Below the pieces are notes generated by a model. That model had not been told where the DNA came from and searched no databases. It saw only the letters and a program-made list of their open reading frames with translations. This document shows positions 16,884 through 52,541 of a DNA stretch of 64,000 bases, one piece after another. The stretch's first letter is position 1. Every line of letters starts with the position of its first letter. Source of the DNA: Quercus robur (taxonomy: Eukaryota > Streptophyta > Magnoliopsida > Fagales > Fagaceae); assembly GCF_932294415.1 (NCBI RefSeq), contig NC_065541.1, positions 30,240,790 through 30,304,789 of the forward strand, in the 5' to 3' direction. The translations under genes and the position numbers were made by a program.

Positions 16884-17035
16884 GGCCAAAATGGGCAAAT
16901 GCCCTTTTTTCGGAAATTAAACATCTTTGTGCCCTCATTCTGAAACTAAATAGGGAAATGCCCCTCTTTTGTAACTCGATAATGCTAAAATCGAGTTATA
17001 TGAAATACTCGATACTATAATAATCGAGTTATACA
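16884..17035 (+). repeat. Left terminal inverted repeat of the giant MULE
   Basis: Pairs with 52390-52541. The outer ~90 bases are unique-looking. The inner part has the inverted motif pairs AACTCGAT ... ATCGAGTT, which continue to about 17226. Confidence 0.85.
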
Positions 17036-17226
17036 CAGGTTTTTCCCGCACTGCTGGCATTTTTTTTTTTGAATCTCTACATAACTCGATTATTTAAAAA
17101 TCGAGTTAGTTATACTGTTATAAACCCTGATTTCGTACTGTCTTTGTGTCAGGTGGAGTGTTTCAATGTAACTCGATTACTGTAATATCGAGTTATAAAG
17201 TATACTTGATATCCGTAAAGTCGAGT
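16975..17226. repeat. Subterminal AACTCGAT/ATCGAGTT motif cluster 1
   Basis: At least four inverted motif pairs separated by short spacers. Each pair can form a small hairpin or a two-sided protein-binding site. Because the motif also recurs at the other end and in internal clusters of the element, transposase binding or promoter function is a reasonable inference. Confidence 0.75.
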
Positions 17227-17809
17227 TATTCTCTTATAATTTCTGCACACCTTCTCCCACTCAGTGTGCCTTGCTCTCTGCTGAACTGAGGACTTTCTGC
17301 TGAACTGAGTTGGAACTCCTCCACGGATCAACAGCGGCTTTCTTCAAACTCAATTGAAATTTGTATCACCTTAGGTAAAAAATTCACATCACAATTTTAG
17401 GGCAATGTTATTTTCATTTGATATTGTACTAAATTTTGATTTTTTAGGTTGAATGAATGTGAAGTAAGTACATTGGTGTGATTTTGGTTATTTGTTGTAG
17501 TAAACGTTGGTGAGAAGAGAATGAAATAATTTCTTTACTATAGCAACATTTTGTATTGCACATAATCATCATTGGTCAGACATTTACAACAACATTTAGT
17601 GTTGAAGACAATGTGTAGACATTACCAACAATGTCTATTGTTTATGGTCAAATGTTGGTGTTAGTGTTAGTATTTCATTTTTAGCATGCAATAGTACACA
17701 ATTTTATGAATGTCTTTGCTGTGTACCATTCTATGCAGGATTACATTATTTAGCAACAGTTGATACACACTGTTAACTTGATCATTTGGTGTTATTGTAT
17801 TCAGTGTCA

Positions 17810-18259
17810 ATGTCTGGTTTTGGCAACCCACAACTCTATAGGCCTCATGATGTGTTCACTGCTATGGGTCGTTGTTGGGTATTGGAAGATGAGTTCAGCT
17901 ATCCAATCAATCCGAATTTGCGAAATAGTGCTTACGTTCACAATACCATGAGACAGGAGTGGGCTTGGTTATTTCGTGAACAACAAATGTTTTATGATGA
18001 GTTGGTTGGTTTTAAGTTGCCAGTGCCTCGGCGACTCGCATCACAAATGCCCAGAGACAGCATCGACGAACTTCGTAAAGCATTGAACCGCATAAGAGAA
18101 GAAAATAATCGAATGAAGATACGTCTTAATCGATATCGGACCTAAGTCGAGATTCGAGAGTCAGTGCAGGAAGGGTGGTACGAGCATGCACAGTTCATGC
18201 AATCACTTCTTGCTGATCCCATTTATCAGTCAGACGTGGAGATGTCAGATGAAGAGTAA
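17810..18259 (+). pseudogene. Small coiled-coil protein A of the giant MULE (one in-frame stop)
   Basis: Family not recognised. The likely start is the ATG at 17810 (MSGFGNPQLYRPHDVF); an upstream in-frame ATG exists at 17786. The protein has an LPVPRR-LASQMPRD segment, then a basic coiled-coil region with RIREENNRMKIRLNRYR. A TAA at 18143-18145 interrupts it, but the same frame runs on 37 codons (VEIRESVQEGWYEHAQFMQS) to an acidic end DVEMSDEE and stop at 18257-18259, about 149 residues in all. It is related to the proteins at 18554-18934 and 21905-22519 through the LPR-x(n)-ENN-M-RR-RYR core. The cluster-1 motif array lies ~580 bases upstream. Confidence 0.6.
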
Positions 18260-18519
18260 TCGTGTCGTGTCGTGGTGTAATTAGATTTTGTTGGAGAACT
18301 ATTTTGCTTAACTATGTGTTATATGTATGGTTGCATTTGTAATATGTAAACCTTATTATTGATTATGAGAAGCATGCACGTTATTCGTAATGTAGATTAT
18401 TCTCACATAAGTCATAAAAGTCAAATATTCTCACACATGATGTTTTTCAATAAGCACGTACGACATAACACAGAAAACATAAAATAACTTACACTAACAT
18501 TATTAACTTAACCATAGAC

Positions 18520-18541
18520 ATAACACACACACACACACACA
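18520..18541. repeat. (AC)n microsatellite
   Basis: A short CA repeat just 3' of the convergent small gene. Confidence 0.7.
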
Positions 18542-18553
18542 CCACAGTGGCAT

Positions 18554-18934
18554 TCATTCTGATAGGTAGTACTCGTAGTTGAGGACATTGTTACGTTCTG
18601 CCGGAGTGAGTTGCCTGTTTGTTGCAACGGCTTGCTCCTCCGCCAATTGTAGCATATGATACCTGGACCTACGAAGTATCATAAGATTGTTCTCTTTTTT
18701 TATTTTCGTCACTGCACGCTCATATTGGTGCATGTTTTGTCGTGGCAGTGTGAGCGAGCTTCGCTCGACAAGAGGCGCTCCGATTTGCAGGAGATCATTG
18801 TGCAGAGCGTTGGACTCGTTCACGCGAAAGTCCCACTCCTGTTGCAATCCGGCATAGTATTCCCTCTCGTCAGAATCTCTTTGCGTTCTATAGTTATTTG
18901 GAAAATGAGGTAGCATCCAATTACGCATTGACAT
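18554..18934 (-). CDS. Small coiled-coil protein B of the giant MULE
   Basis: 126 residues, intact, from ATG 18934. Family not recognised. It shows aromatic/acidic N-terminal sequence (NWMLPHFPNNYRTQRDSDER), then LTLPRQNMHQYERAVTKIKK and ENNLMILRRSRYHM, a predicted coiled coil. It is convergent with protein A and shares its core motif, so the two probably arose by duplication and inversion inside the element. No catalytic motif or membrane segment is visible. It could be an accessory or DNA-binding partner, but that is a guess. Confidence 0.55.
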   Translation of the reverse strand: MSMRNWMLPHFPNNYRTQRDSDEREYYAGLQQEWDFRVNESNALHNDLLQIGAPLVERSSLTLPRQNMHQYERAVTKIKKENNLMILRRSRYHMLQLAEEQAVATNRQLTPAERNNVLNYEYYLSE

Positions 18935-19639
18935 TGGAAAATGTGACTTTAGATCGGTATGTGTAGAAGTTTTGCAAGGGTAGATGTATGTAAATGGGAC
19001 TTCGGTATGTGTAGATGTTTTGCAAGGGTAGATGTAAATGGGACTTTATATAGGGGTTTTGCAAGAGCAAGTATTCAGGTGGATGTGAGTATAAGTATTC
19101 ACGTGAATAAAGATGATATGAGTTGACAGTATATTGTTCAGTGGCGTCTGTTGGTGCATGTGATTCGTTGAGGTAGCTGTTTCATATGGCTATAGCTTGT
19201 GCTACAGTAGCGGGCTGGTGATGTGTACTGCAAAAGAGGTTGCGTATTTATTCACGTGAAGACTATTCAACATTGATGTGCTTCATCTGACATGATTTGA
19301 CGAGACAATGTTGAGCTGTGTTAAATGTATCATAAACTTCTCAGGGATGCTATAGGTACATCCTTTAAAAATGTTGCATTGCAAAAGGATGCATAGCTGT
19401 GTATTGACGTGCGTCTAGGTGATATGACTGGATAGGGTTCAACAGTGCAAAGCTATTGAGCAGCACTACAAACATCAATGTAGCAATAGGACCAATAACA
19501 CTCGAAATTGATGCACAAAATTTTCTGCGTTGCTATGTGTATTGACGTGAGTGTGGATGGGTACTTCTGGTCAGGGTTCAACAATACTGAGCTATCCACC
19601 GTAGCTACAGTCATTGCTCCCTATGGTGGAATTTGGCAA

Positions 19640-20358
19640 GTGTGATTGAAGAAAGCTGATAACAACATTAGGTTTTGTAATGGTTGGCAGGATTTCGCTG
19701 AATACCATTCTATCTGTTATGGTTATTTTTTAGTCTTCAGATATGAAGGAAATTCAAGCTTCCATATTGTTATATTTGATAAGACTGCCACTGAGATTCA
19801 ATATCCACGTAGGAAGAATTGTAAATTGGAAGATCATCAGGTAAAAATATCAAAAACTTAGATGAAGATGATACAAACATTTCTTCCTTAATGTACAAAC
19901 CCATAAAACATGAAGTCAGAGAAAAGTTTGTTCTTAAAAAATTACAGATTATGTCCAGAGGAAGAGAGAGAGAGCAATCCAAGCAGCCAAAAAATTGAAG
20001 CCTAAAAATCCTTCTTTCATGGGTATCTCGTGGCCACATAATATGGTGAGCCTTTATACATAATGTGATTATGATGTTCTCTTAAATATGGCTTGGAAAC
20101 ATATATGAGAAGCAAGTATATTATTGGGAAGCAATTTGTCACACATCAATGTCTTGTGCTATTACCCTCCATCAAAACATATTAAGCAATGAGATTCGGG
20201 GAAGGCTGGGTTGCATTTTTGAAAGACAATAATTTAGAAAAAGGAGATGTCACTGCCAATGAGGTGATCGAAAGGACTCCTGTTGTGATTAGTGTCTCAA
20301 TATTTCACTTGGTTGACCATCAGAGTTTGGACAAGGATAACCTATTTAAAATTTAAAC
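19640..20358 (+). pseudogene. Decayed B3-domain gene copy
   Basis: Frame pieces read NGWQDFAEYHSICYGYFLVF then YEGNSSFHIVIFDKTATEIQ (19680-19800), the C-terminal half of a first B3 domain. An acidic/basic linker follows (DEDDTNISSLMYKP, 19860-19990). After a break, GEGWVAFLKDNNLEKGDV and a VISVSIFHLV end appear (20195-20320), the second B3 domain. Stops and frame changes interrupt it and the 5' part is missing. It resembles but is not identical to the intact gene at 28360-30686, so the element holds two B3 copies of different age or origin. Confidence 0.75.
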
Positions 20359-21904
20359 TAGTGATGTTTATGCTTATATTTAATTAGGGACTTTGATCAG
20401 TACTATGGTTTATTTCTCTGACCAGTTTGGTATGTCTTGTTCAAAACTATTCAGAATTCCTGTGCTTCATCTGACATGACTTGTTGAGACAGTACTGAGC
20501 TGTGTTCAATGTATCATAAACTTTTCAGCCATGCTCTGCATCCTTGAAAACAGTGCATTGCAAAAGAAGGCATATCTGTGTATTGACTGGACAGGGTTGA
20601 ACAGTGCGAAGCTGTTAAGCAGCACATGTAGCACTACGAACAACATCTGTGTACCAATGGTGGGCAGCTCACACCCAAAATTGATGCATAGCCAATTCAG
20701 GGATGCTCTGCCTCTTCGAAAACGGTGCATTGCAAAGGGTTGCACATATGTGTATTCACGTGAGTGGGGATGGTTACGTGTGGTCAGGGTTCAATAGTTT
20801 CGAGATGTTGAGTATCACATGCAGAACTACATCAATCAAGTGTAGCAATGATGGACAGCTTACCCCCAAAAATTTGCTTACACTTTTGAAGGGTCCTCTG
20901 CATCCTTGAAAATAGTGCATTGCAAAATGTTGCATATCTGTTTATTCACGTGAGCATGGATGATATGACTGGACAGGGTTCAATAGTGTCGAGTTGTTGA
21001 GCAGCACATGCAGAACTGCGAACATGACTTCGCCGAACAGTGCCGAGCTGTGTTAGCCTTTTCCAACCTCACTTGCCAAATGCTAGTATTACGAGCAGTG
21101 AGTGTAGCAACAGTAGAGAGTTTTATCCCCCTGTTTCCCTACAAACTTTTCAGGGAGTATTTGCAGGTAGAAAATGTAGTTACATTTTCTCAACATCAAT
21201 GTAAAATTACATGAAGAAAACTATGCTTCCAAGTTTTACATCAATGGCTTCCGATCATCACAATTGCAATATTAGGGAGCTTTCAAGCAATGCTACAACA
21301 AACCAATAACTTGAATGAAACATTTCAAAGGCTAATCAGGCTTTTAGGCCTTTACTCTATTTTTAAGCAAACCAAATATCGTTGTGAGAGGGTGTTGGGT
21401 GAGCCATATGGATTTTCAGTGAGTGAGTGGTTAGTCTGGTTTGGACGAGTCTTTATGTAATGTATCTATATAAAGTAGGACACTATTACAACTAAGATAC
21501 ACAGATACGTGCATATTATATCGTGACTCAAACAAATCATATAAAAGAATTATTCGAATTATTGAATCATATGCGCGGTTGATCTATGTGGTTTGGATCA
21601 GTCTGTATGTATTGAATCTATTAAATTTTCCTACAAGTAATGTGCAATAAATATAATTTGGAGGCATTTCACTTCCTAAGGTTTTCCCTACATTACAAAG
21701 CAAAGGACATTGTTCGTCCATGACCCACATTACTTGAATGTAGCAACAAAGAACACGTATGAAAAAAATGAGAAAGTGATTTCACATAAACTTAGCCAAA
21801 AGTAATAAACAGTTAATCTTTAGAGTTGCAAAAGTTGAACATACATAATCATCATTTGTCACACATTAACAATAACATCATGTATTGCACATAATGTGTA
21901 GACA

Positions 21905-22519
21905 TTAACAACAACGTCTAATGTTCGTAGGTAGAAATTTTTGGAAATCATCATTGCTTGAATCTGAGAAGTCTGAAATATCTGTTTCATCATCTAACGC
22001 AGTAATTTCATTAATAGACTTCATGGCTCGCTCTTGCGCCTTCCCCTTTAGATGCTTCCTAGCCTTTTGGATTGCGTGAAAACGGTCTAGTCGCCTTTGC
22101 ATTTGATTGTTCTCTTGTTCAAGACGAGCAAGTATGTTGGCAGGTTCATCTCTAGGTAACTCGGCAGAGCGTGCCTTAGGAACTCGTAACCCGTGCCATC
22201 GACAATACACCTCTAACTCACACCTCTTCTCGTATAGGGTTGACCATGGTGGTTCTGCTATAGTGAACTCTATTGCGGTGGTATCTGTACTTAGTTTTGT
22301 AGGTTTGCCGACCATGATGTGTCCGACGCTTCCAAGATTCTCATACGTGTATATTGGCATATTAACGAAATCTCTCTTCTTTCCAACCCATTTTCCTCCA
22401 TAGTGGTCTGTGTATGTATGTAGTTGTTGATCTGTTGGAACTTGTGATGATGCATTTGTTGAAGTAGGTCCAAACTTGTTTCGCATTGTACGATTTGATG
22501 TTGACGCATTGCGACTCAT
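21905..22519 (-). CDS. Small coiled-coil protein C of the giant MULE
   Basis: 204 residues, intact, ATG at 22519. Family not recognised. It has a Ser/Thr-rich N-terminus, a middle GKWVGKKRDFVNMPIYTYEN region, then RVPKARSAELPRDEP and LARLEQENNQMQRRLDRFH (coiled coil) and an acidic tail (DDETDISDFSDSSNDD). The LPR...ENN.M.RRL.R core aligns with proteins A and B, and protein A also ends in an acidic tail. It is the longest family member and may be closest to the ancestral form. No enzyme motif is seen. Confidence 0.6.
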   Translation of the reverse strand: MSRNASTSNRTMRNKFGPTSTNASSQVPTDQQLHTYTDHYGGKWVGKKRDFVNMPIYTYENLGSVGHIMVGKPTKLSTDTTAIEFTIAEPPWSTLYEKRCELEVYCRWHGLRVPKARSAELPRDEPANILARLEQENNQMQRRLDRFHAIQKARKHLKGKAQERAMKSINEITALDDETDISDFSDSSNDDFQKFLPTNIRRCC

Positions 22520-22549
22520 AGCTTAATCAATCTACGAAGTTAGCGGGGT

Positions 22550-24480
22550 AGAAAGTTAACATTATATCACTGGTGCATTTATAACCTCATTTCACGGTCT
22601 AGGCATTACAATTTCACTTATTAGGGCCTGTCATGTCAAACCCTTCAGGAAAAACACTATATGAACAGGATTTTAAATATTCCTAATGTCACATCAAAGG
22701 TGGGCAGTAGTTGCAACAGTAGATGTAAATGAGACATCTGTGCATCCAATTTCACAATTCTGTATTCACGTGAGTGTGGGTGTGAAACAGTGTCGACTTG
22801 GGTATCCACATCGTGTAGAGCACCGAACATGACTTGACTAAGCAGCAGCGTCTGTTGGCACATGTGCTGCGATTGAAGGAGTTTGATATGACTACAGTTG
22901 GTGCTACAGAAACAGGCTGGTGACGTGTGTTTAGAGTTGGAACTTGGACACCTTCAAACTTCGCTATATTAATTGTGTTTTGTCTTTCACCAGCAAGTTC
23001 GCAATATTAATTTATTAATTATGTTTGGTCTTTCACAAAATAAATTACGAAGATCACAGTGTTTTCTGTGATTTGGTCATTTTGAATGTCTGTAAATATC
23101 ATGGTGTGTAAATATGACGGTGTTCATTATCTTTGGTCATTAAACATTTACAGGTTAAAAGCATCACTTTGGTCTCAGAACCATCACTCTTACAAATTAC
23201 GTAGCGCCATAGGCTGAAACACTGAAATTTCTCTTGTAATCGTAGCCAATTGATGTGAGACTGCATTTGAGGGAATACCTACTTACTCGACTATTCGATC
23301 AAACATCGTGGTCAAAGACTTGTCGGTTTGAAGCGAGGCCCAATTTGGTCTGAATACCACATCTGTTATACCGTAGATGTTGGTGGTGGCTTAAGCTCCT
23401 GGTTATATCTGTTTAATTGTGGACTTTACCTTTACAAAATCTTAAACATCAGGGTGTTTATTATCGTTGGTCATTTTCAAGGATGGTAGTCAAAACGCTC
23501 TTCCCATAATTCGTGACTGTTGGTTAGAAGAGATTGCACATAGGTAAAACCATGTTCAACCCTGAAACTAAGCTCTCAAACAAACGCGTGCCATAATAAT
23601 TTACAGGTTGAAAGCACCACTTTGCTCTTAGAACTTTGATGTTAGTGGCTTGAGGTCACTGTTATATCTGTTTAATCGTGTTTGGTCCTTCACAACATAC
23701 TTAAACTTCACGATGTTTATTATCTTCAGCTCACAGTTATCTAATATATTATGTAAGGGGCCACCACTTCAGGTTTGGATTCCTCATATTTGATTAAAAA
23801 AAAATCCGTTAGACCTAATGCTAGAGTGAATGAGGTCATGCCAAGTGTCGCTTTTATCTTTTTCGACGAGTCTGCACTGCAAGGTTTCATCAATAAATTT
23901 TATAATGAAAATATGATGCATGAGGAATAGTCCAGGCGAGGATCAAATTCAGAATAATATAATTGCTGATTTAAGATCGACAAAAATATCCAATTAGTGG
24001 AAAATACATGTAAGCTCAGCAAAACCTCCAATAAAAATAGTTGCCTGAAGTCAAGATATAGCTTCAGCCATTGTTCCAAGGAAAATCTCCTAGGTGGTTC
24101 ATCGTTAATATCAAAACCTGTAAACGAATTGTGCTTTCACAAAACCTTCCATTTGTATTAATAATTACTATAATCTAAAAACACGTGAGCGTCGTACAGA
24201 ATTATGAAATAAATGTTATTTACACACAGACTTGGATCTACTTGATATTATATAGAATCACATAATAACATAAAAAATTCTTAGACCATTACATCCATTT
24301 CAATAATACTAATGATAGTAACGATGGGCATGAAACTAACCATCATATTAATATATCAAATTACTTTCAACGGATACCATGTTCTTCAAATTTCCACTAA
24401 AATAAAAAAATATAAAACTGTCATACAATTCTCCAAATATGTTATAGCAACCATGAACTGAAAATCGTCCCCCCCTTGGG
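22550..24480. other. Non-coding interior of the giant MULE
   Basis: About 1.9 kb with only short chance ORFs. Phrases such as CAGGTTRAAAGCA-CACTTTG (23153, 23605) and TTTATTATC-TTGGTCATT recur, indicating degenerate internal duplications. Confidence 0.5.
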
Positions 24481-24501
24481 TACAATACCCAATGGGAATC
24501 A

Positions 24502-25635
24502 TCAAGAGTCAGATGGTGTAGAAGGTGGAACAGGACGTCTATAGTGAGCTAAGTCCGCTCGCATAGCTCGAACCTCGGCAAGAAGACCATGTAGAAGCTG
24601 ACCATGGGCTGCCTGAGTCGTCATAATGGTCTCCATCATAGCATGAAGAGAGGGAGGAAGAGGGCATGTATGCGCTGCATCAACAGTGTCAACATCTATC
24701 TCATCATCACCATCCTCGGCAACAACAGATGTGGGATCCCCATGCATGTCCTCATCTTGAACATCTCTAGTAGTAGACCGTACTCGTGGTCTGTTGGATG
24801 GACCAACACTGAGGTCGACAACCTTCTTTTGGGCAGTTCGCTGTTTCAGAAATTTGGCTCCTATAGGGGCTTGGATGTGAACCAACTCGTGGGAAGGAAA
24901 GTTCTTTAATCCTAAATATTTGAGGACCCTATGGATGAGAACTGGGAAAAACAAAGCATGCCTCTTATACTTGCTCCTACGCACCTTGACAATGGTTTCG
25001 ATGAAAAGGGAAGGAAAACAAATGGAACTATTGGTGACAAGGGCGTAAAGCAAGATACACCTGTTTACAGGGATTGTATGGATATGAGAGATAGGGAAAA
25101 TGTTGTGACAAGCTATCCTAAAGAAGATATAATTAAGCTCAGTCAACTCACTTGAGCTAATACTTCGGCCAGAATCCCGATTGTTTGATCGTCCACAAAG
25201 AACATCCATAACATCATCAATACGAGGAGACATAGAGTTTGGATAAGTAGGTGTACAAATTATAGGTACATCAAGGGCTTTAGATACGTGCTCCCTAGTT
25301 ATTGTAAACGGTACACCACGTATGGACGATGCCACCTTGTGACCACCAAGATCCTCATGCACCGATAGATTCGAATAGAATTCTCTAATCAAGTCAGCTG
25401 GAGGGGGTTGTATGTTTGTACATAGGGACAGCCAATGCCTAGACTGTAGATTCTCACGAACAAAAGGATGCAGTTCCTGTAAATTGATTTGCCTTTCTCC
25501 CCAAATACGCCTACGCTTAATCAAGGTTTCAAAGGTTTGCTCATTTTCTGGCATGAGGAACCTTAATTGATCAAACACCACTTCAGGTTCGGATGCAGCT
25601 TTGCATTTTCCCCTCTTAGTCCTCTTCGGACCCAT
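24502..25635 (-). CDS. Plant-transposon-type protein (377 aa)
   Basis: Intact single-exon ORF from ATG 25635. A basic N-terminus (MGPKRTKRGK) is followed by a globular region, residues ~20-240, with RRRIWGERQINLQELHPFV, LIREFYSNLSVHED, a VRGVPFTIT-like RGVPFTITREHVSKALDVP, and NRCILLYALVTNSSICFPSL. This pattern is that of the uncharacterised 'putative plant transposon protein' domain common in plant mobile elements. An acidic linker (EDGDDEIDVDTVD) and a C-terminal coiled coil (LLHGLLAEVRAMRADLAHYR) follow. It may act as a gag-like or accessory multimerising protein, which is inference. A motif cluster (26430-27010) lies ~0.8 kb upstream. No lesion was seen. Confidence 0.72.
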   Translation of the reverse strand: MGPKRTKRGKCKAASEPEVVFDQLRFLMPENEQTFETLIKRRRIWGERQINLQELHPFVRENLQSRHWLSLCTNIQPPPADLIREFYSNLSVHEDLGGHKVASSIRGVPFTITREHVSKALDVPIICTPTYPNSMSPRIDDVMDVLCGRSNNRDSGRSISSSELTELNYIFFRIACHNIFPISHIHTIPVNRCILLYALVTNSSICFPSLFIETIVKVRRSKYKRHALFFPVLIHRVLKYLGLKNFPSHELVHIQAPIGAKFLKQRTAQKKVVDLSVGPSNRPRVRSTTRDVQDEDMHGDPTSVVAEDGDDEIDVDTVDAAHTCPLPPSLHAMMETIMTTQAAHGQLLHGLLAEVRAMRADLAHYRRPVPPSTPSDS

Positions 25636-25649
25636 AACTAATCGATGGT

Positions 25650-26425
25650 CAGTAGTGCAAACACGATCAGCTCACACAAAAACAGAACCAAAATGAAGTT
25701 TGAAGCAGAGAACAAAAATTGAAGAGTAACCAGCTACCATGTGTAGAAAATCATGCACACAATATACTGTCTAGAGCAGTTTACAACAACACAATGAAAA
25801 CCAAATATTCTTATTCACGGGTTGTTTAGTTGGTGCAATAATTGTAATGCATTTTGGTCCGAGTCAATAATTTGAAGTTAGAGACCTAGAGTATATAACA
25901 GAAGTCTTATCATATAGGAAACATACAAGTGGATTTAGGAACTGACATATATCATACCATCGTAGCTACATGTACTAAGTTTCACCAGCTTCTATAAAAA
26001 ACAGAAAATAAATTGCACAATGTACAGTTCAGACATACAACCAGCATATATCTATACCACACACATATGGAGCCACTGGCAAGTTCATTTTGTGGAAGGA
26101 AGACAACCTATGACATAGGCAACCTTACTAACAACAATGCATTTGACTAGGCAAACACCCAATTTCATCACAATCTTCATAGACATAGACATAGAAGTGT
26201 GAAGCATCAAAATGCAAAATTTGAGAATAATGCACCAACAATGTGTAATTTCAAAGACAGCAACCGTTAAAAGAGTCTTACTATGTAAAATCCTCGACGA
26301 ATTTGCGCGGGAAATTGTGGGTTCTAGCCAGATGAAGCGAGAGCAATCGAAGATGTAATTTCGGACAGCTGCAAGTTCTGCAGAACTGGGGAAGAGTTAA
26401 TAAAAATGGGTAATAGATTGTAATG
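25650..26425. other. 5' flank of the 377-aa protein gene
   Basis: AT-rich non-coding DNA between the ORF and the motif cluster. No element or exon was recognised. Confidence 0.4.
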
Positions 26426-26429
26426 TCCA

Positions 26430-27015
26430 TATAACTCGATTTTCTGGAAATCGAGTTACATGCAATCAAATTTTCAGCACATAAACCGACTGTCCGTAAA
26501 TCGAGTTATGTGTAGCACAAATAACAAGAATCCAGTTAATGGTGGAACGGCTTTCTCATAACTCGATGTCGCAGACAACAAGTTAATTTCAAATAACTCG
26601 ATTATACATAACTCGAGTTATTTTTCTGGGCCCCCAGATATTTGGACTGGTCCAGATGCAGTCTAAGACGAATCGAAGTTTAATGGTAGGCCTGCCACAA
26701 TACTCGATTCTACGTGAATCGAGTTCTGCGCAGTGGACACTCACAAGAATTCAAATTCCTCGAGATTTAGAAAATCGAGTTACGTTGTACACATGCATCC
26801 ACCCAGCCCATATATTTGGACTGGTCCAGATGCGGTCCAAGAGGAATCCAACTGTATATGGCTACCTCGCACAAAACCGAACTCCGGTAAAATCGAGTTA
26901 TTTGCAGTAGAATATCTCAAGAATACAATTTCTATGTGTAATGGCTTGCATATAAATTGATACATCATAAAGCGAGTTATTTGCAGAGTTACTCAATTTT
27001 GTAGAACTTGAGTTA
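26430..27015. repeat. AACTCGAT/ATCGAGTT motif cluster 2 with old 154-bp-like units
   Basis: Several inverted motif pairs. The phrase TTTGGACTGGTCCAGATGC appears at ~26641 and ~26814, the same sequence that opens each unit of the 154-bp array at 30993-35690. This is a degenerate relative of that array. Confidence 0.75.
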
Positions 27016-28345: not shown

Positions 28346-28359
28346 TCCACCCTAACCAC

Positions 28360-36500: not shown

Positions 36501-36506
36501 TACCTG

Positions 36507-39134: not shown

Positions 39135-39284
39135 GCCAGACCTGGATAAGGACAATTAATTGTGGTTATCATGCAGAAGATAGGGGGTTATGTTAATGCA
39201 ACAGTAATTAATCTTTTACAGATGCACTATGATGCTATCCTAATTATAGGTGTACACACTTGATTCGTTTGGACACAAACATTG

Positions 39285-39861: not shown

Positions 39862-39893
<32 letters not shown>

Positions 39894-39956
39894 CATGTGA
39901 TCATATATGGGTAGGTAGCTTTGTTTATATTTACATATATTTGCATAGACATACAT

Positions 39957-40004
<48 letters not shown>

Positions 40005-40400: not shown

Positions 40401-40435
40401 GCATGGATTCTGAAATGTGGGGAGGGGGACAACAT

Positions 40436-40605
40436 GACTCGATATTAAAGAAATCGATTTTATATAAAACTCGATACCACATAAATCGAGTTACTGTTGA
40501 CAAGACGTATTGAAATGATGGCATTTCAGAAACTCGGTTAATTAGAAGTCGAGTTACATGTAACTCCACATGCTATAACTCGATTTCTATAGATTCGAGT
40601 TTTAG
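40436..40605. promoter_or_regulatory. AACTCGAT/ATCGAGTT motif cluster 4, upstream of the hybrid-binding gene
   Basis: Four inverted pairs, ending ~100 bases before the ATG at 40701 in the mudrA / hybrid-binding intergenic region. The position suggests promoter or transposase-binding function; this is inference. Confidence 0.6.
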
Positions 40606-40700
40606 CCCCATTTCCTCTACAAAAGCCCACTTCACACGTTAGAAGGTGCAACCACATTCTAGCGCAAAGAGTTCCCACCATTGCGTTTTTGTAGAGCAGG

Positions 40701-41138
40701 ATGGGACGAACCTATGTTGTGTTTAACGGTCGTGTTCCAGGCATATACGACAGTTGGCTAGATGCGAGTAGACAAGTTCATAAATTCCCAAACGCCAATC
40801 ACAAATCATATAAAGATCGAAGGGAAGCCGAAGCTGCATACATGGAGTATTTGCATGGTAATGGTATGGGCGTGCATGGTGGTGTGTCTACATCGTGGGA
40901 AACTCCAAACATATCAACCTCAACTCCTCCTAGCACTTCTCAAAGCGAAGGAACCAACTATGGCAGTGGAGACATTAGGCACACTTTGTTAAGGTATCAG
41001 TTGGAAGTTGCCATTGAGGAGCGTGACCACGCAAGGAGGATCGCAACGTTGAGTGCAAACATGTTGAATGAAGTGGTGGCTCATGTTGTGGGGGATGATG
41101 AAGTTGATGCACCCACGAGACAACGTACGGATGCATGA
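40701..41138 (+). CDS. RNase H1 N-terminal (hybrid-binding) domain protein, 145 aa
   Basis: Residues 3-50 (YVVFNGRVPGIYDSW, QVHKFPNANHKSYK, REAEAAY) match the small RNA:DNA-hybrid / dsRNA-binding domain found at the N-terminus of RNase H1 and in related plant proteins. The conserved VVF-GR-PGIY-SW, the K/Y pair of the SYKDR loop and EAEAAY are all visible. No RNase H catalytic domain follows. Instead there is a Ser/Thr-rich linker and a helical region (RYQLEVAIEERDHARRIATL), ending DAPTRQRTDA. The gene is complete, single exon, divergent from mudrA. A hybrid-binding protein beside a DNA transposase is unexpected; it might act on nucleic-acid intermediates or silencing RNAs, but this is speculation. 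Confidence 0.8.
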   Translation: MGRTYVVFNGRVPGIYDSWLDASRQVHKFPNANHKSYKDRREAEAAYMEYLHGNGMGVHGGVSTSWETPNISTSTPPSTSQSEGTNYGSGDIRHTLLRYQLEVAIEERDHARRIATLSANMLNEVVAHVVGDDEVDAPTRQRTDA

Positions 41139-41139
41139 A

Positions 41140-41970: not shown

Positions 41971-41971
41971 A

Positions 41972-42118
41972 CTATATCTTCCCTCTAGCTAGCTCCACTG
42001 GACAAAACAGGTTCATCTCTATGAGAGTGGTCTTGCCACTGCCAATTCTGCCAACAATACGTATTTTGTGCCCTTCCTCAAATGTGCAACTGATCCCCCT
42101 CAGAACAAGTGCATCAGC
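41972..42118 (-). pseudogene. Captured ABCC-type transporter fragment (Walker A)
   Basis: The minus frame reads [20 protein letters not shown] then [20 protein letters not shown] and ends VELARGKI-stop. It matches the second nucleotide-binding domain of plant MRP/ABCC transporters, where the sequence is [28 protein letters not shown]. The Walker A P-loop is GRIGSGKTT. Only ~49 codons are present, with no other ABC motifs, so it is a non-functional captured piece inside the giant MULE. Confidence 0.82.
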
Positions 42119-42633
42119 CTATATTTGATCTGTTTTATCAATGATATATAAAGCCATATTATAAAGCCAAGTTTGAAGCAAATAACACAACTCTCAATCA
42201 TGTGAAGATAAATAGAAAACCAGTCAGATTGGTAATGAATGCCAAAGCATTAGTCCGCTTAGATAAAGTCCGGAAGAGCAACTTCAAATCAAGAATGCTT
42301 GCACTTCCGTCAAAAGTGCAAGCATTCCTTTCCCACTAAATACTCCACAGGAGACAAAGAGGTATCATCATGTCTAAATTTTTTAGCAATCAAACCATGT
42401 AAAGCACTAAACATATGACGATTACCCATGTCAACAGTTTGGTCAATTAATGCCAACTTATAGATCAAAAGTCTTATTAAATGCTTCTTCCACTTCTAAC
42501 TTATAGGAAGCTCAAAGAAAATATGTTTGATGATCACCAAACAGACATGTAAGAAGAAAATTTTACAGCATCGTTAGTTTGCAAAATCTACAATTATTTT
42601 CATTCCCACATGATTTCAACACATTGCAGATAA

Positions 42634-42635
<2 letters not shown>

Positions 42636-42670
<35 letters not shown>
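42636..42670. repeat. (TA)n microsatellite
   Basis: A pure TA run between the ABCC and PLAA fragments. Confidence 0.85.
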
Positions 42671-42675
<5 letters not shown>

Positions 42676-42704
42676 CAATGAAGGCAAATAAATGGAAAAA
42701 ATAC

Positions 42705-43032
42705 CTGTATGCCCAACAAAAGTATGTGTACATTTGCTTCCTCTCCAAAGTTTTAAAGTTGTATCACTTGAACCTAAAATCGTGGTAGCATAAAAATGAA
42801 CCCCATAAGTTCATAGTGAAAGACAAAGTAGTTGATAATGCATTCCAATCTGATGTAACCAGTTCCAACTACCAACAAAATCTAAAACAATATCTAGCAG
42901 AACAGTCATCTACTGAATCATATTATACCTGTAACAAGCTCGCCTGAAGGCAGCTTTATGAGTGCTTGGATTGCTGCCTTATGAGCCTCCCAGGATTCTG
43001 AAGGTTGGCCACTTCTCCAACGTCTTAATGTG
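42705..43032 (-). pseudogene. Captured PLAA/DOA1 WD40 gene fragment, two exons
   Basis: Exons 42929-43032 and 42705-42773 with intact splice sites and matching phase read TLRRWRSGQPSESWEAHKAA-IQALIKLPSGELVTG | SSDTTLKLWRGSKCTHTF-VGHT. This is a stretch of WD40 repeats characteristic of phospholipase A2-activating protein (DOA1/UFD3), a ubiquitin-binding Cdc48 cofactor. There are no stops within the two exons, but the 5' and 3' parts of the gene are missing. Retained introns show capture from genomic DNA rather than from mRNA. It lies beside the ABCC piece on the same strand. Confidence 0.85.
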
Positions 43033-43244
43033 CTGTGGTGAAGGAGACATTAGATACTAACCGAAAATTATTGAGAAAAATGCATATACCTTTGTAAGCA
43101 TAGATAATAATTCAGACCCAAAAAACGGCAATACACAAACAATAAAAGTAACATTCAAACAGTATGCAAATTTTTCATTAATGCCTCCATCAATTCATTA
43201 AAGCAAATGATGGACAAGATTTGATTCATTGGCCAATGACAGAC

Positions 43245-43287
<43 letters not shown>

Positions 43288-44347
43288 TGAAAATCATAAA
43301 ATAAGAAGGCTAATTGATGAAAAAATCAATAATCAATTAAATGTTTCTCATTGGGTTCCCAATTTGCTACCAAAATGAAAAGGTAATATATACAATGATA
43401 AATAACAATTACAAACCCCAAGAAGCGAAAGGAACAAAACATGCACACATAACTAAGATTTTTGCCGTTTTCAGCTTTGGGTAAGTTATATTGTGAGCTG
43501 CTCTAGAACAATGCTAGAAAAAAATATAAATTCTATTCTCCAAAGTTCCTACTAACGAACTTGTAATCAAATGTACACAGATCTAATCATTCTAGAGAGG
43601 AGGGGATTGAAAGGAGATTAAAAATAATAAAATGGGAAGGAGGATGTACCAATCTAGGAATTGTAGGGAAGGCGAATCAGAAAATTAGGAGAGAGACACA
43701 TACCTAGCCAAGCATTGTAGAGACTCGGATAAATGATTTGCTACAAAGGAGTTGGTTCTGCCATTGATCCGCATAAACTTCGTCATCAAACTCTTTTACA
43801 GAAAGTATCAAATTACTTCTTCTTGCTTATCAACAATACCACACATTTGTTTCTCACAAAAATAACAAAAATAAAAAAACAAATTACTCTCTTACAACCC
43901 ACTTTACTGTAGCTAACAACATACAAAAACACAAGAAAGTTTGGCTTCAAATGAATACCAATCCAGACATTTGTCAAATTGCAATCAAAACTCCAAGTGC
44001 AGAAAAACTTCCTAATACATCAATAAATACAATACGCCTTATGGGTTTTCTCCAAAATATCAATTTCTTGACAACAAACACATTGACAGCCAGTATTCTC
44101 CCCAAGCAATGATCCAGAAATAGATGCACAGCCACCAAGATTCTCCCCAATTAGTAGAACATTTTGCATGCTTATTCCAGTCACCTATACACATGAAGAA
44201 TAAGCACACAAGGACAATCCAGCTCAATGGCCTTTTCGTGTCCACCATTGCAGTTAGGTCTAAAAAAAAAATACGACTTTAGAAGAAAAGTGAAACGTAA
44301 CTATGCAGTCACCTATAGGCAGGAAGTATAAGCATACACTAAGGCAT
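43033..44347. other. Non-coding interior, with (TA)n and a short duplication
   Basis: A (TA)n run is at ~43251-43287. Two diverged ~120-base copies at ~44165-44260 and ~44308-44400 (GTCACCTATA ... CCTTTTCGTGTCC) give look-alike short ORFs. The second copy overlaps the last PMD exon. No further captured exon was recognised with confidence. Confidence 0.45.
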
Positions 44348-45182
44348 TTAATGATCTTTTCGTTTCCGCCCATATGCCCTGACAGGTCTAATCTTACCTG
44401 TTTCATCAGACACAACAGCATAATTAAATTAACATAATCAATCAAATGCACAGTACAAGTAGCTCAAGAAGATGGGAAGTGTAGACGAAGTACATACCAT
44501 CACCGGTCCCGCAATCGGGAGCATGCGCACGCGGGCGTCGCGATCTCCGCAAAGCCTCCACCGGCTCAATGTCCTCAGCTGGTATCTGCTCAATCTGTAC
44601 AGCCTCTCCGTGGGCGGTTTGAGATGGAGCTGACATGGTGGGGTCCACATGCACTAGAGGTGGGGTGGGCATGCCTGGTGTGGGGACAAATATGCATCCA
44701 CCATCATGGGCAGATCCACTGAAAACTGGGGGCGACATACGAGGAGGGCCCTCAAAGTCCGTGCTAGCACCATAGGATGTAGTGTGGGCTGGAACAGTGC
44801 CCTAATGATCAACGCTATGGGATGGCCCAGCACCATCGCCAGGCGTGCATCGCGGTGTCCTGCCGTCGTCATCAGACAGTACCCAATCAGTGCCAAGCCA
44901 TGCCTCTTCTACAACCTCCTCATTACCTTCCTCGTAGATGGGAGCCGACTCGTTCGTACGGCTGCGACCAGCTTGACCACCTCCACGATGTCCACCCCCA
45001 CGAGACCCACCACATTGCCCGCCACGAACTGGGGCCTGTGTATCAATGTCAACTGCTTCTGCAAGCGCATTCGCCAATTTAAGTCGGCCTAGCTCCTCCA
45101 CAAGCTCTAGTGTAAATGTAAGGTCAATGTGCATGTCAGAACCTTCATCGCACCTCGGTATAGACCTAATCATCGTCCGAAC

Positions 45183-46335
45183 CTACAAAACAAGGGCGTC
45201 ATAAAAGCAAGAACGCAAGTATGATGCAAAACTTGGATAAATCTGTTCCAAAATCAAAAGAAAAAGTAGCAAACATAGCTAATGAAATCCTTATATTACT
45301 TATAATTATGAAGCATCTTTAAAAAGACAGTGTATAAAAATAGGGGTTGGCCCCCCCTGTGCAAAAATTTATAGTTCCAACCCAACACTCAGGAGGTTGT
45401 ATGTTTCCTGTTATGTTTATCGCTACGCAATCTAAACATTGAGATAATACTTCTAAAAAACACGTATAGTTGGTTGTACATAAGTTCAATCTTAGCATAA
45501 GTGAAAATATCAGAATTTCACTTCTGTATCTAGGCTTCACGAGATTTACAACTCCATTAATATCACATTGCAATCAGGACACATATTTTGAAGTTATTAT
45601 TTCCTAACGTACACGCCCAAATCAAATGAATTGAAAATATCAAACGCAAGCTTCAAGTTTCAATTAAGGGAAGTACCAAAAACTTAGAACATATATCATA
45701 CTTGAATCTAGTATAAATGCACATCTCCTTGTTGCATACTTGCAAGATTTTAAATGACCTTTAAGCTGTTGGGAATTGCATTCTACCAACAGTTTAGTAA
45801 GGGACTTCCCAATCCTAGAGGTAATATCTATCAAGGAATATGTAATACATTAATCAGTCCTGGAGGAAAGGCTATCTAAACTATCATGAAATGTGAATTT
45901 ATCACTACTACACAGAGTTGCACCGTCCATTTTAAAGTAGTAGTCTGAATACCAAAAACAAAAAAAAAAAAAAAACAAAAAATAAAATAAAATACAATAA
46001 AACCCAACCCAACCTACCCTTTTTAAAAGTTGAATGTAATTATATGAACAAAGGTGTGGTCATCATTAGTCATTGCCCATTAACCATTCCTCATGCAAAC
46101 AAATTGGATCAAGACAAATTCAGTTTGTTATGAACAACTTAAATCATGCAGTATTTTGACTTTAAAACATAATGACATGTCATGCAGTATTTTTTCACTT
46201 TAAAACAAAATGACAGAGAAACTTATAGAGATGTAACAACAATAATTATTGTGGACTTTTGCATGCATGATAAAGCTGCTGAGGATATTTAATCCAACAA
46301 TGGTTTCATCCATAAAATAGGAATTGTTGCCTCAC
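45183..46335. other. Intron 4 of the PMD gene
   Basis: Non-coding. A poly(A)-like run at ~45961-45977 and degenerate short repeats (CATGCAGTATTTT-AC-TTAAAACA at ~46145 and ~46177). Nothing else was seen. Confidence 0.6.
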
Positions 46336-47473
46336 CATGAGTTCCCAATACGCAGACTCTAGTGTTATGTACCGCCTTGTGTGGCGATCGTACCACATCA
46401 TGTACTCAACGAGATACGTATCATCATCGTCTAGGAGATCGGACCCGCGAACTACATTCACTCGATTGGCCCATTGCCGAATAAAGGGATCATGTTCTAC
46501 CTCCCAGTTCTTCTCCCATTTACCCTAAAGGGATATCTTGTGAAGGGTAGTCGACGTATCCACGACACTTGGAACTGGTTGCTTCATCCCAAACTGACGG
46601 AGGACTCGCTCAGGATGATGCCACTCCACTATCCAAAAGAATATCAACGGCACCTCGGCCCTCCAAATATGCTGCCCAGCAGTGCAATACGCAGGTAGGG
46701 AGCCTAGCGTATGCGTGTACGGCTCCCATACAATCTGCATAAGTAGATTATGTTTGTGATAGTGAGACATCATACTGATTTAACATTATGTTTGTGATAT
46801 GTAATATGCAAAGCATGGAATTTCTAGCCTCTAGTCGTACACAAAATCTTCAGGGATTATTGGGCAGAAACTAAAAGAACAACAAAATTGACCTGCAAAA
46901 AATATTAAAAGATCTAGGTTGTTCATGTCCACCATTTTCAGCCCCATGTTCATATGCTGGACAGGGTTCAAAGCTAACTGACACCATCAAATACTAGGGT
47001 TTTCAATCTGAACCAAACTTAGAGGAGGGTACTACAGCATCCTTATGGCTGTAAGATGAATCCAAGTTGATGATTTCGCAAAATCTTTTTATCGTAATAG
47101 AAATATTGTGCTACATTAATTGCATTAGTCATTAACAATGTTTCAATGAATGAGAACAAAATGACTATTATAAGGTCTACTGAAGACATTGCATTTCAAG
47201 TACCACTTTATATTGCAAGAAATGGAAGCTATGTAAATTATTACATGGTATAATCCTCATCAAATATTGTTATTATATTTCTATGTAAATATATATTTCT
47301 TATAAATTTTAGTGTTGGAAATTACGTAAGCCTTTTAGTTATCTCAAACTAATCATGTCAATGTCTAAAATTACATTCCTCTTGAAGAATATGGTGAGCA
47401 GCATATTTTGCACGCTTCTAAAATTATATGAATAAAGTACTCGTTAATAATCCATAGCTTTTAATAATTTTAG

Positions 47474-50290
47474 GACTATTAAGGCAGCTAAAGTGGGGAC
47501 AACTTAAGGAGTTGCATGCTGCAATTAAATTGTGCTCTCCAACTTTGGTGCAAGGAGCACGAACTAACTTTTCATTTAGGTCAACAACAAGAGGTAATGT
47601 GTCAAGCGTCTTTATGTTTTCTCATATATCACTGATTAACAATTATTTGTTTCTTTAAACTTAGGCCATTGTTTTCCAAGAAGACAATCGAGGCTGTGCA
47701 TATTCAAAATATACCACTTGAATACGTAAATCGAAGCCAAACAGTATTCTACTAGACTGTATAAATATAACCTTCAATTCAGCAAAGGTAATTTATAACG
47801 TACAATGTAACAATGTTTTTTGCATCACAATAACAATGTTTGTAATCCTGGATACCCCTATGTTAGAAGAAGAAATACTAAATTGTCTACTTATTAGGCA
47901 GAGCAATAACTATGGTTTTAAGCTCATAACATTTTATTAATTAATTACAAGTGATTTCACAAGCTTAATTACAAACCGTACAAGCTTAAATTTTATTTGT
48001 TTAATCAAATTTGTAGCATATATTGAGACTATATGCAAAAACAACCGACTAAAGTAGAGCGTGATAGTAATCTGGTGCAATTGTACATATGAAACTTCTA
48101 GCCAAGAGAGTTCGATCGTACCTATGAAACTTATATCTATGCCCAAATGGAGCTCACACACTAAAACCACCTGCAGCACCAGTGGCACCAATGAATTGTA
48201 AAGAGCTTAGATTCACATTGACTACCTATGAAAACACCATCAACTAGAACATCCCAAACGGATGTTTAGATAACATAAAAGTTTATATTAACCTTAGATG
48301 GTCACTTAATACTAAATATTGCTATATTCTGTCACAGGGGTAGTGAAATGCATAAACTCCAAACATTAGTAAGTTTTTGAAGGCAAAGCAACAATTGAGA
48401 CTATCTTCGGTGCTCACTCTGGCATCCTAAACAACCCCAAATCTCACAAAGGGTTTAACCTATACCCTGGACTCTCGAGTTCCTAGTCGGGGGGCACTAA
48501 TGGCTTTGTATTTTGGAAATTTCACAGTGTGGACCCAAGCAATGACAACCATCCAGCATTGGACAAGGACAAGCTATGGCAATGGCTTAGCCTATGGTCA
48601 CTCTATGACATTCAAGGCAGAGTAACTCCATCCTTTAGTTTGCTTAATTTCAAATTTCAATGAAAGCCAGAGAAGTGATCATGTGTTTTACGGGCCAATG
48701 ATCAATAATGTCATCATTCCCTCTGTTTCTGTACTTAGGCCAAAAATACAAATTGGGGTTATATTTTTGCTCTCATGTCATGATTACATAATAATTAGAT
48801 AAAATTTTCGTAGTTTAATATTTGCAGCTTTCCCAACGTTCTAAATTTAAAGAATTTTATCATTTTATGAGATTTAACAGCCAACTATATTACAACAGTG
48901 AAGAGAAGCTCTAACTCAGCAAATTTAATTCAACGAAAATCTGGAATATAATTGTGGTAATATCTAAGTCAACCACCAAAACTATAGCGAATCGAGAAGG
49001 TGTGAAATATTAATAAGCTTCAACAGTTCTAAAAAAAATATCTATTTTAAAGCTTTAATATTGAAGTATAACAACTATCAAAGATTCAAACTCTCTCTAA
49101 AAGAATTATGAGCACAAGTCTGGGCTAACCTGTTGAGCAAGACTCCAAAACGCATGTAAAGAAGCAGAAAGTGCAAAAACAACGAAGAAGACAGTGAAGC
49201 AGAATTCACGCAAGGATTAGGGAAAGAAAAAAATTTGGACCATTTCTCGATTTATGCGTGTCATCCTTGCGCAGGGGCCATGCGTTTTGAAAATATCATT
49301 TGTATTCTAATATGCCTTGATTCCCTTGTTCTGAAAAGACCCATATTTGTCAAGTTTATAGTTAGAAATTTGTTGTTTAGAATTTAATTGATATCTTCTG
49401 CGTTTACAATCATTCGCCTTATATAAAGTCTTAAGAAATATTGTTTTGAAATTTTTTAGTTCATTTTCATAGCAGGCTAAAAGTTCTATTTTCTCACGTT
49501 AAGTAGGTTGAAACGGTGTATAATGACATAATCAGAAAATGAACACAAACTTTTGATTCAGTTAGTAGTTGGAAAGAATTTAAAGATGTCATCGTCAGTT
49601 TCGAAGATGCATCATTAAAATCAAATGAATTACTTGAGCACACAAATACAACCAAAGACAAATCTGATTATCTTTGGTATACTATTAGGTAAATTCATTT
49701 CTCATTGAATTATAACCAATTACATAATCCAATATGTGCGTCTTCTCTTCATTGCATCAGCTTAATGACATTTGTAACAATTGGTGGAGTTTTTGTTTTT
49801 TGGTTGCAACACAAGTTTGAACTCACTGCCTTGCACTAAACCAAGACTTCATGCTCAATCTTTTGCACATGTTGCACATGCTTCAAACATCTTGGAAAAG
49901 GGACAATTTATTCTGTGTTTTTTTTTTTTTTTCGGTGTAAATCACAAACGTTTCCGTACATAATGAAGAATATAGCCAAATTCTACTTTATATATATATG
50001 ACTAAATTTATATATAACCCATTGATTTAACCCAACTTAACCTGAGTCATGTTAGTTGGGTTGCATTGGAAAAAACCCTTCAATCCAACCCAATTTGGAA
50101 AAAACCCTTTGATTTAACATTCAATAATTTTTTACTTTTGTTTTACTTTATGTAAGGACGAGCAAGTATTCATGCAGGTGCTACAAATGGAAGTTCTAAT
50201 GTGAAGTACTTCACGATGGACATTCCAATTGAGTTAAATGATGGGATGGAAATCCAAGTATCAAACAAAATGATTGGATGGTATTATGAA
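47474..50290 (+). pseudogene. Captured beta-galactosidase (GH35) gene fragment
   Basis: Exon pieces in order: 47474-47593 (LLRQLKWGQLKELHAAIKLC, SPTLVQGA), 47665-47787 (IVFQEDNRGCA, then after a frame break SILLDCINITFNSAK), ~49546-49688 (FDSVSSWKEFKDVIVSFEDA then NTTKDKSDYLWYTIR), ~50155-50260 (VKYFTMDIPIELNDGM). These are the middle and C-terminal parts of plant BGAL enzymes, downstream of the catalytic glutamates. Several exon/intron borders are still GT-AG. Internal breaks and missing ends make it non-functional. It lies opposite to the PMD gene inside its 3.7-kb intron 3, so the capture or insertion happened within that gene. Confidence 0.82.
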
Positions 50291-52311
50291 ATCAACTCAT
50301 TCCTACAACAATCCAAGAATTCAAAATAAAATAAAAATTGAGCGAAACGAAAATAAAAGCATGTGCGGTGCATTTGAGGAAAACGTGCTCGGCCCGTAGT
50401 CATAAGAATTGAGGGAAACGTGGTCATAAGAATTCAAACTAAATTAACCGAATACCTGCTCGGCCCGTACTGTAGCCAGTGACGCCCGGTACGCAGCAAG
50501 GACATGTGTGGCATGCTCTGCGGTGCATTTTGGCCCGCTCCACCTACCAAACATGAGGTGTCGACAAATGCTCATTATTGAACCTTACATTTAACAAACT
50601 TTGCTTTTATATTTCACATCCATATACTAAGCATTGATAAGTTTCTTTCGTTTGTTAGTTTGGCATATTTTTAATTATATGAAAGAGACAAATAACGAGA
50701 ACTCAATGAACGTACCTAATGGCAAGGGGCCCTGAGTGCACTAGCGGTAGAGGCGGCCTCACAACAGGGCATAATTGTGGGAACCTTGAATAGGCCCATA
50801 GCTGCACCAACAAGAGTGCTCCTCCAATCTGCATCGCATCCTTCTTCGATGCACCACAAAGTTGCCTATACAGCCAGGCCAATGCTGCACTACCCCAGCT
50901 ATACCGTCTCGCATTGCTGACTGGGTTGAGCAACTGCAGAGGCAGCAGTGAGACCCGGTCCGCAGACCTGTCCATGAACAAGAGGCCCCCATCCGTACAA
51001 GTAGGTGGTAGCGGGCATGTTGCTGCACGACTTCGTCAGCAGCGTCCACAACTAAGGGAGCGGCAAACTGTGCATCAAGCCAGGTGTATCTTATCCTCGC
51101 CCCAGCAAGGGTAGACTTGTTTGAGTTTGGTATCGGGGGTGGAGGTTTATGGCCCAACAACTGTTCGCACAGCTCACTCCATTTGTAGTCTGTCTTCCCA
51201 GTGACAGGCAACCCATCCACCGGAAGCCCCAGCATCACCTCCATATCTTGCAAGGTGATACCCATTTCTCCATGGGGTAAGTGGAACGTGTGCGTCTCCG
51301 GACGCCACCGCTCAACCAACGCCGTGATCAAGGCGTGGTCGACCTCCATATCAGGAACCTTGAATAAACCAGTCAACCCTGCTGCATCTATGTGTTGCAT
51401 GATACGTGGATCTAACCCACCCTGTGGCAATACACATTTACGGCGTCGAACCTTTATCATGTCAGGCGCCTCCTGCACACGGACGAGTATTCTGTTAGGA
51501 GATTAAACACGAGGTAATTATAAAACAAACATGTATTAATAATACTACTACATACCTCGTCAGCGGCGCACCTCCAAAGTGGACTTGACCGATGATTCGG
51601 CTGCTGGGCCAACTGGGTATCCACATCGGGTCCAGGCCGCACTCTATCTGGTGCCTGCATATCTGACATGGCAGCAAATACATTGTTAGCAATTTTCTAA
51701 CAAGTAAACCACATTTAATATAAAATAAAAGCATAGATTCAGTAAGACATTATATTTTGAGCACAAGATTTTCAACATCACTTCTTAAATAAATAAGAAC
51801 TTGCCATAAAAAAAATTATTTCGGAACTATTTAAATCACTTCTTAAAGCTTCGGATAATTATTAATTAACTATTTATGAAAATATAAGTTATAACACCAC
51901 TCGATTTGCCAAAACCCCTCATCAAAACCCCAAGCACATTTAAACTCATTAATGAGAAAATCATCATTGCAGCATATAAAAGACAACAAAATTCTCATCT
52001 TCATTAGTAAATTTACTACTTCCTTAAGTTTCAACAAAATAATCAAAATCCCACACAAAACGCAACCTAACATTAACCAACATCAGAAAATATTTCAGAG
52101 GGAGAGGACCGTACCTGTAATCAGCGGCGGTGGGAACCAACAACGACTGATGGAGACTCGAGGAAGAGTGGGGAAGCCTGATCGCAGAGCGAGAGAGACA
52201 GAGTGTGGAGAGAGAGTGATGGCAGAGAGCGAGGGAAAGAGAGTGTACAGGGAGAGCGAGTGACTGAATAGCGTTGTGAGACGTTAGGGTCCTATTGATT
52301 CAAACCGCTGA

Positions 52312-52541
52312 AAATAACTCGATTTCCAGTTTCCCGAGTTATGACCGTCTACACAAACATTTTTTTATTGGGGAAAATTCGAAGGGTCAGACTAACTCGG
52401 CTATACAAATATCGAGTTATTCATTAAAACTCGATTTCTCTATTGTCGAGTTACAAAAGAGGGGCAATTCCCTATTTAGTTTCAGAAAGAGGGCAAACGA
52501 ATGTTTAATTTCCCAAAAAAGGGTATTTGCCCATTTTCTCC
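52312..52541 (-). repeat. Right terminal inverted repeat and motif cluster 5
   Basis: 52390-52541 pairs with the left end. Motif pairs AACTCGATTT ... CGAGTTA lie at ~52315-52455, ~650 bases upstream of the PMD start codon. Confidence 0.85.

Follow-up and report, generated by a model that had tools for sequence, protein, structure and literature searches.

The window analysed here is a stretch of 64,000 nucleotides of the oak Quercus robur, and positions 16884 to 52541 of it are a single insertion of a giant Mutator-like element (MULE), an identification that we regard as almost certain. Its features are collected in Table 1, in which gene starts are ORF or homology starts and not transcript starts. 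On comparison of the window with itself, 16888-17031 and 52393-52537 match as inverted repeats (84.1% over 145 bp, E 1e-37), in agreement with the inverted ends of about 150 bases that a sequence-only reading had described, and the same ends recur in 38 pairs in the genome. The exact duplication described for the flanks was found as well, reading AACGTAATAA on both sides, which does not match the "AACTGAATAA-type" label that had been given to them. When the flanks are re-joined, they align across the junction with a tandem repeat unit of the right flank at 82.9% over 158 bp, and therefore the pre-insertion site can be restored, as had been claimed. The duplication measures 10 bp in the window and 9-10 bp in 20 of 20 other copies, and the range given for MULEs in the excerpted text of PMC6446971 is 8-11 bp.

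Table 1. Features of the giant element and its target site, in window positions.
Feature	Position	Strand	Remark
Target site duplication, left, AACGTAATAA	16874-16883		identical to 52542-52551
Left terminal inverted repeat	16884-17035	+	84% over 145 bp to right end
Palindrome cluster 1, 5 sites (<=4 mismatches)	16972-17228		left end
Second, diverged B3 gene	19586-20305	+	Pfam B3 and mapped relatives
Conserved uncharacterised 204-aa ORF	21908-22522	-	intact in 17/21 copies
Transposase_32 (PF20167) ORF	24505-25671	-	intact in 16/21 copies; region absent from L024, one of the 21
Palindrome cluster 2, 8 sites	26432-27015		upstream of Transposase_32 ORF
B3-B3 DNA-binding protein gene	28369-30722	-	matched pieces 30722-30585, 29450-29091, 29017-28877, 28641-28369
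Palindrome cluster 3, first part, 8 sites	30777-31272		upstream of B3-B3 gene; contains 154-bp tandem units
Nested LTR retrotransposon, no part of the family	31272-34574		LTRs 97.5% identical; absent from C38 copy
Palindrome cluster 3, second part, 15 sites	34672-35745		mostly inside 154-bp tandem array
mudrA transposase ORF, 875 aa from ATG	36507-39155	-	MULE, DBD_Tnp_Mut and SWIM domains
Palindrome cluster 4, 4 sites	40435-40602		between divergent mudrA and RNase H1-N ORFs
ORF with RNase H1 N-terminal (Cauli_VI) domain	40695-41135	+	domain at 40713-40838, E 1.1e-13
ABC-transporter-like fragments (43793-43707, 42109-42017)	42017-43793	-	match Q. suber protein P0074; PF00005 below cut-off
Plant mobile domain (PMD) gene, in pieces	44499-51502	-	51502-50762, ~50987-50709, 46737-46390; 44777-44499 probably also part of it
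Palindrome cluster 5, 3 sites	52315-52453		in/beside right terminal repeat, upstream of PMD
Right terminal inverted repeat	52390-52541	-	pairs with left end
Target site duplication, right, AACGTAATAA	52542-52551		exact 10-bp match to left copy

In order to identify the genes carried, whole frames of the element (with X at stops) were scanned against Pfam, save for one plus frame of 46884-52541. Above the cut-off were PMD, Transposase_32, the domains of mudrA, three B3 domains (two on the minus and one on the plus strand) and the N-terminal domain of RNase H1; an ABC transporter (PF00005), a channel helix and a dynein domain were found below it. The transposase is of MURA type, and mudrA is uninterrupted, as the sequence-only reading had stated: one open frame matches PF10551 (E 1.8e-19), PF03108 and PF04434, and its DDE acids, placed by motif, are those that we take to lie in SIDATHLYG, ISDRHRG and NLSECFNG. 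Its closest relative, in Q. lobata, is 95% identical. Among 13 other copies examined, 10 have the complete mudrA frame open (L029, L052, L054-L060, L062); in L063 the frame is open save its first base, which falls outside the sequence read, and in L053 and L061 it is broken. The presence of PMD was considered as a surprising content and rejected as such, PMD being common in plant MULE clades according to the available part of PMC6446971.

The 204-aa protein has 242 relatives, and among the best 120 many are exactly 204 aa long at 75-99% identity (36-row alignment); Pfam gave no family for it, and a coiled coil near its middle is our guess from reading the sequence. The Transposase_32 protein P0123 and the 204-aa relative P0252 are each listed in ENA with an 18,934-base contig, which suggests that these two genes travel together in another element. 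A structure prediction for Transposase_32 was too poor for use (mean pLDDT 50.5), and ORF polymorphism within the family, over 21 copies, displayed no clear purifying selection. Furthermore, 14 mudrA relatives, of 210 proteins, were mapped back on the element. Some Q. suber gene models continue from a mudrA of this kind into the B3-B3 gene (P0008, P0054, P0077) and to the end of Transposase_32 (P0010, P0016, P0077), and P0074 joins the 44777-44499 sequence, the ABC-transporter-like pieces and mudrA. Given that these models combine the same genes, the gene set is common to another oak.

The host genome (785.7 Mb) was searched with the outer 152 bases of the left end and with the right end. These searches gave 1974 left and 1284 right candidates, of which the best 40 on each side were scored (94-100% and 95-100%, respectively), so that copy numbers and totals given here are lower bounds. 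Each left end was joined to the closest right end that faces it on its contig, up to a distance of 100 kb. Full-length copies had been proposed as a check by the sequence-only reading, and of the 40 left ends scored best, 38 have such a partner; two left and two right ends are unpaired. The 38 pairs are spaced at 10.6-42.8 kb (median 31.9 kb), with 21 of them at 31-33 kb, and together span 1.20 Mb. Twenty copies besides the window, drawn from the 39 other scored left ends, were read over their first 10 kb. They occupy different sites, and with the element ends fixed their target duplications of 9-10 bp are exact in 18 and carry one mismatch in two (L018, L022). Over these 10 kb, 19 of the 20 follow the window essentially throughout at about 98-99%, several with short indels. 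The copy L024 (C3:9371755-9388179) is 16.4 kb long, with an internal deletion that joins the equivalents of ~23452 and ~42439 and removes mudrA.

The copy at C38:20423242-20455073, read whole, is collinear with the window at ~99% for 31,832 bp and lacks the nested retrotransposon. The canonical length of the family is ~31.8 kb, and the window copy reaches 35.66 kb through a nested LTR retrotransposon of 3.3 kb. Hence, the 35.66 kb originally proposed holds for the window insertion and was rejected as the length of the family. The nested retrotransposon is flanked on both sides by GAGTT, at 31267-31271 and 34575-34579, and a relative of its long terminal repeat, 82-83% identical, is found outside the element at 59358-60447. 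Pairwise divergence among the 21 copies over the first 10 kb ranges from 0.08 to 1.65% (median 1.25%). A younger group of copies differs mostly by 0.1-0.8%, and an older one by about 0.7-1.1%. The element thus appears to have amplified recently into dozens of near-identical copies, and the recent activity that had been thought possible is consistent with this divergence and with the open mudrA of 10 of 13 other copies. A giant, multi-gene MULE lineage, as had been suggested, is borne out by the paired ends of 38 copies, the Pfam matches and the annotated oak gene models.

The element also carries a palindrome newly described here, TAACTCGAT-N9-ATCGAGTTA, of 27 bp with a rigid 9-bp spacer. Its 43 sites fall into five clusters, which occupy both ends and precede several of the ORFs. 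In the whole window AACTCGA occurs 18 times and TCGAGTT 43 times, with about 2 expected for each. When up to 3 mismatches are allowed, 45 window sites have a spacer of 9, and the other spacers between 0 and 30 yield 0-3 sites each. With up to 4 mismatches, the 9-bp spacer gives 48 window sites, against a mean of 0.235 and a maximum of 2 in 200 Markov sequences; 43 of these lie in the element, and five at 53.4-54.0 kb in a small relative. This relative, at 53341-54090 and 0.8 kb outside the giant element, is itself palindromic and non-autonomous; its arms are inverted repeats 81% identical. Sites are often paired, 32-36 bp apart.

Genome-wide, 368 exact palindromes were found with spacers of 4-16 allowed, while the reversed control gave none. 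The spacer is 9 in all 50 distinct places listed of the 368; 26 of these 50 fall inside the 38 paired elements, and four of the remaining 24 were read, all of which align with the family ends at 69-79%. One of these four, L065, is a complete palindromic element of ~470 bp. More generally, L064-L067 are diverged ends or short palindromic elements that share the layout of the terminal repeat and the palindrome. Both terminal repeats of the element have the palindrome at nearly corresponding positions. Nine terminal repeats were aligned, some with a mutual identity of just ~70%; all nine preserve the right half ATCGAGTT without change, and most of them the left half. Cluster 3 is 55 bp upstream of the first matched B3-B3 piece, cluster 2 is 0.76 kb upstream of the Transposase_32 ORF, cluster 4 is 1.3 kb from mudrA and 0.1 kb from the RNase H1-N ORF, and cluster 5 is 0.8 kb upstream of PMD. 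The B3 gene of the left end lies ~2.4 kb from its cluster, and no palindrome was found within ~3.9 kb upstream of the 204-aa ORF. Identity with the Arabidopsis "DOWN" motif of PMD mutants (CATGCAGTTT, as given in the accessible text of PMC9899485) was rejected, the sequence being different.

Variation within the palindrome was then compared at the 11 sites of the first 10 kb in 21 copies (the window and L009-L028). Variable positions amount to 33/99 in spacers, compared to 12/198 in half-sites and 83/1547 in other non-coding, non-CpG sequence, and the variable CpGs are 3/40 in half-sites against 15/44 elsewhere in the same regions. The site is 27 bases long in all 225 readable site copies. At the seven sites with at most 2 arm mismatches, 28/63 spacer positions vary as compared to 15/210 flanking ones (P 8e-11), and at the four sites with 3-4 arm mismatches the figures are 5/36 and 14/120 (P 0.77). 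Among the latter, the site at 17202 is invariant, that at 26482 has one variant copy, and those at 26700 and 26756 have two variable positions each. Along 16972-26620 of the window, the spacers of the seven near-perfect palindromes are far more variable than their surroundings while the half-sites hardly vary. In a looser set of eight sites, picked by eye, variation peaks at the dyad centre in six. An inversion of the spacers was rejected, as no reverse-complement pairs exist among the spacers at any of the 11 sites.

The window and the C38 copy were also compared over the whole element. A spacer excess at first counted between them (10/333 against 197/30,992) was withdrawn as support, since the tandem array aligns out of register. 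With the array removed there is no spacer excess (2/234 against 191/30,459, P 0.66), the half-sites are no more conserved than the rest (4/467 variable), and inside the array the excess is not significant (5/18 against 9/50, P 0.50). The lack of an excess in this pair without the array therefore confines the spacer effect to seven palindromes, in two clusters, and mostly to differences between subfamilies.

Relaxed constraint alone would not raise the spacers above the neighbouring non-coding DNA. Diversifying selection in propagating lineages, for example through escape from small-RNA-directed silencing, looks at least as likely a cause as faster mutation of occupied or hairpin-forming sites, and we would give it an even chance. 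Indeed, variants shared by at least two copies show a far greater excess (19/63 in spacers against 28/1591 in other non-coding sequence, odds ratio 24) than private ones (11/63 against 70/1591, odds ratio 4.6), and the close pair of the window and C38 has none outside the array. A fast evolution of VANC target regions to escape RdDM has moreover been proposed, in the portion of PMC10398659 at hand. Against selection, the private variants are themselves in excess (P 2e-4), and the restriction of the effect to sites with near-perfect arms also fits a mutational cause.

Taken together, these results are best explained, in our judgement with good probability, by a giant autonomous-type MULE of ~31.8 kb with palindrome-based self-control. 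One mobile unit has inserted repeatedly; its transposase gene is open, and it carries a shared motif whose spacing is rigid. The ~31.8-kb element moves as one unit, its MURA-type transposase presumably acting on the ~145-bp terminal inverted repeats and leaving 9-10-bp duplications. A dimeric DNA-binding protein may bind the palindromes at both ends and in the internal clusters; the palindrome is quite probably a protein-binding site. The chances are somewhat better than even that its putative binder is encoded by the element, the most likely candidate being a B3 protein, followed by Transposase_32, PMD or MURA itself; we know of no B3 protein that prefers this palindrome. Binding would then switch on or de-silence the whole element, as VANC does for VANDAL21, and a role of the palindrome in activation or anti-silencing appears evenly poised. 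We advance only tentatively, with chances below even, that a ~32-kb transposon runs its own regulon, in which ends and promoters share a palindromic operator read by an element-encoded dimer (B3 or Transposase_32), de-silencing evolved independently of VANC, and spacers diversify several-fold faster than the DNA around them in propagating lineages, through occupancy or silencing escape.

The palindrome of the terminal repeats could also be the transposase's own binding site. It is unlikely that the palindrome is solely a MURA site and that the internal clusters have no regulatory role, even though the motif is similarly placed in each of the nine aligned terminal repeats, some of which belong to short relatives with little else in common. 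Indeed, most element sites (35 of 43) belong to neither end cluster; around them, self-comparison (matches of at least 60 bp) found no internal duplicate of the outer terminal repeat; and each of the three internal clusters lies upstream of an ORF. Less probable still is that the element is a passenger mobilised by the transposase of a foreign family, its internal genes being captured cargo. It would then be a very large Pack-MULE, that is an element with captured host gene fragments and without a transposase. The ABC-transporter-like fragments are a likeness to such elements, and the ORFs without clear purifying selection within the family would agree with cargo; the oak element differs in that its transposase gene is open and that further genes accompany it as a shared set. 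Moreover, 10 of 13 other copies have an open mudrA, and the Q. suber models join B3 and Transposase_32 pieces to the same kind of mudrA, a set thus shared between oaks. Finally, although the nested retrotransposon and the tandem array make the locus complex, a chance pairing of ends or an assembly artefact, which the sequence-only reading had named with a lack of two-ended copies as what would speak against it, can be dismissed given 38 end pairs on many contigs, duplications in all 20 copies tested and one copy collinear over its full length.

Giant DNA transposons are known mostly outside plants. A recently amplified MULE of ~32 kb indicates that this superfamily can insert such units dozens of times in one genome, and a multi-gene element with a repeated, switch-like motif makes it possible to investigate the self-control of such elements. 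With an operator-like palindrome it becomes testable whether one DNA-binding protein coordinates and protects the genes of a large transposon, and whether such anti-silencing has arisen more than once, while fast-changing spacers between frozen half-sites provide a natural test of mutation against selection.

In its excerpted text, a review of giant transposons sets the bar at 20 kb and names Pack-MULEs and red-algal CACTA elements of 16-20 kb, and no giant MULE (PMC6431247); the 31,832-bp copy without the nested insert and the 21 of 38 pairs at 31-33 kb lie above that bar. A search of the open-licence literature in PubMed Central on giant or large MULEs, oak MULEs and B3 domains in MULEs found no such element among the entries listed. 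In Q. virginiana, Mutator elements invade centromeric satellites, according to the part of PMC13042303 consulted. The grapevine elements Mutavine-1 (Mudravi1, 17.7 kb, the longest in the table seen of PMC2528002) and Mutavine-18 (16.2 kb) are likewise long MULEs of many copies, but have about half the length of the oak element. With the MUDRAVI2, MUDR and MDR clades that carry PMD, as described in the available sections of PMC6446971, the oak element shares a mudrA with SWIM, a PMD gene, terminal inverted repeats and a duplication near 9 bp. In those clades PMD is often antisense, whereas in the oak element it is on the strand of mudrA, and the oak element has B3 genes, while a term search of the text of PMC6446971 gave no "B3 domain".

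The published parallel for the palindrome clusters is VANDAL21 of Arabidopsis. From the passages available of PMC5735166 and PMC10398659, its element-encoded anti-silencing protein VANC21 recognises a short motif that clusters, often in tandem repeats, in the non-coding regions of VANDAL21, and its binding causes methylation loss. In a search for vanC, the Pfam scan of the oak element gave no further family above the cut-off in the frames covered (all except one plus frame of 46884-52541). The oak element, like VANDAL21, is a MULE whose non-coding regions hold a clustered short motif, often in tandem repeats, but the VANC21 motif in those passages is YAGTATTAY while that of the oak element, a putative binding site, is a 27-bp palindrome with a rigid spacer.
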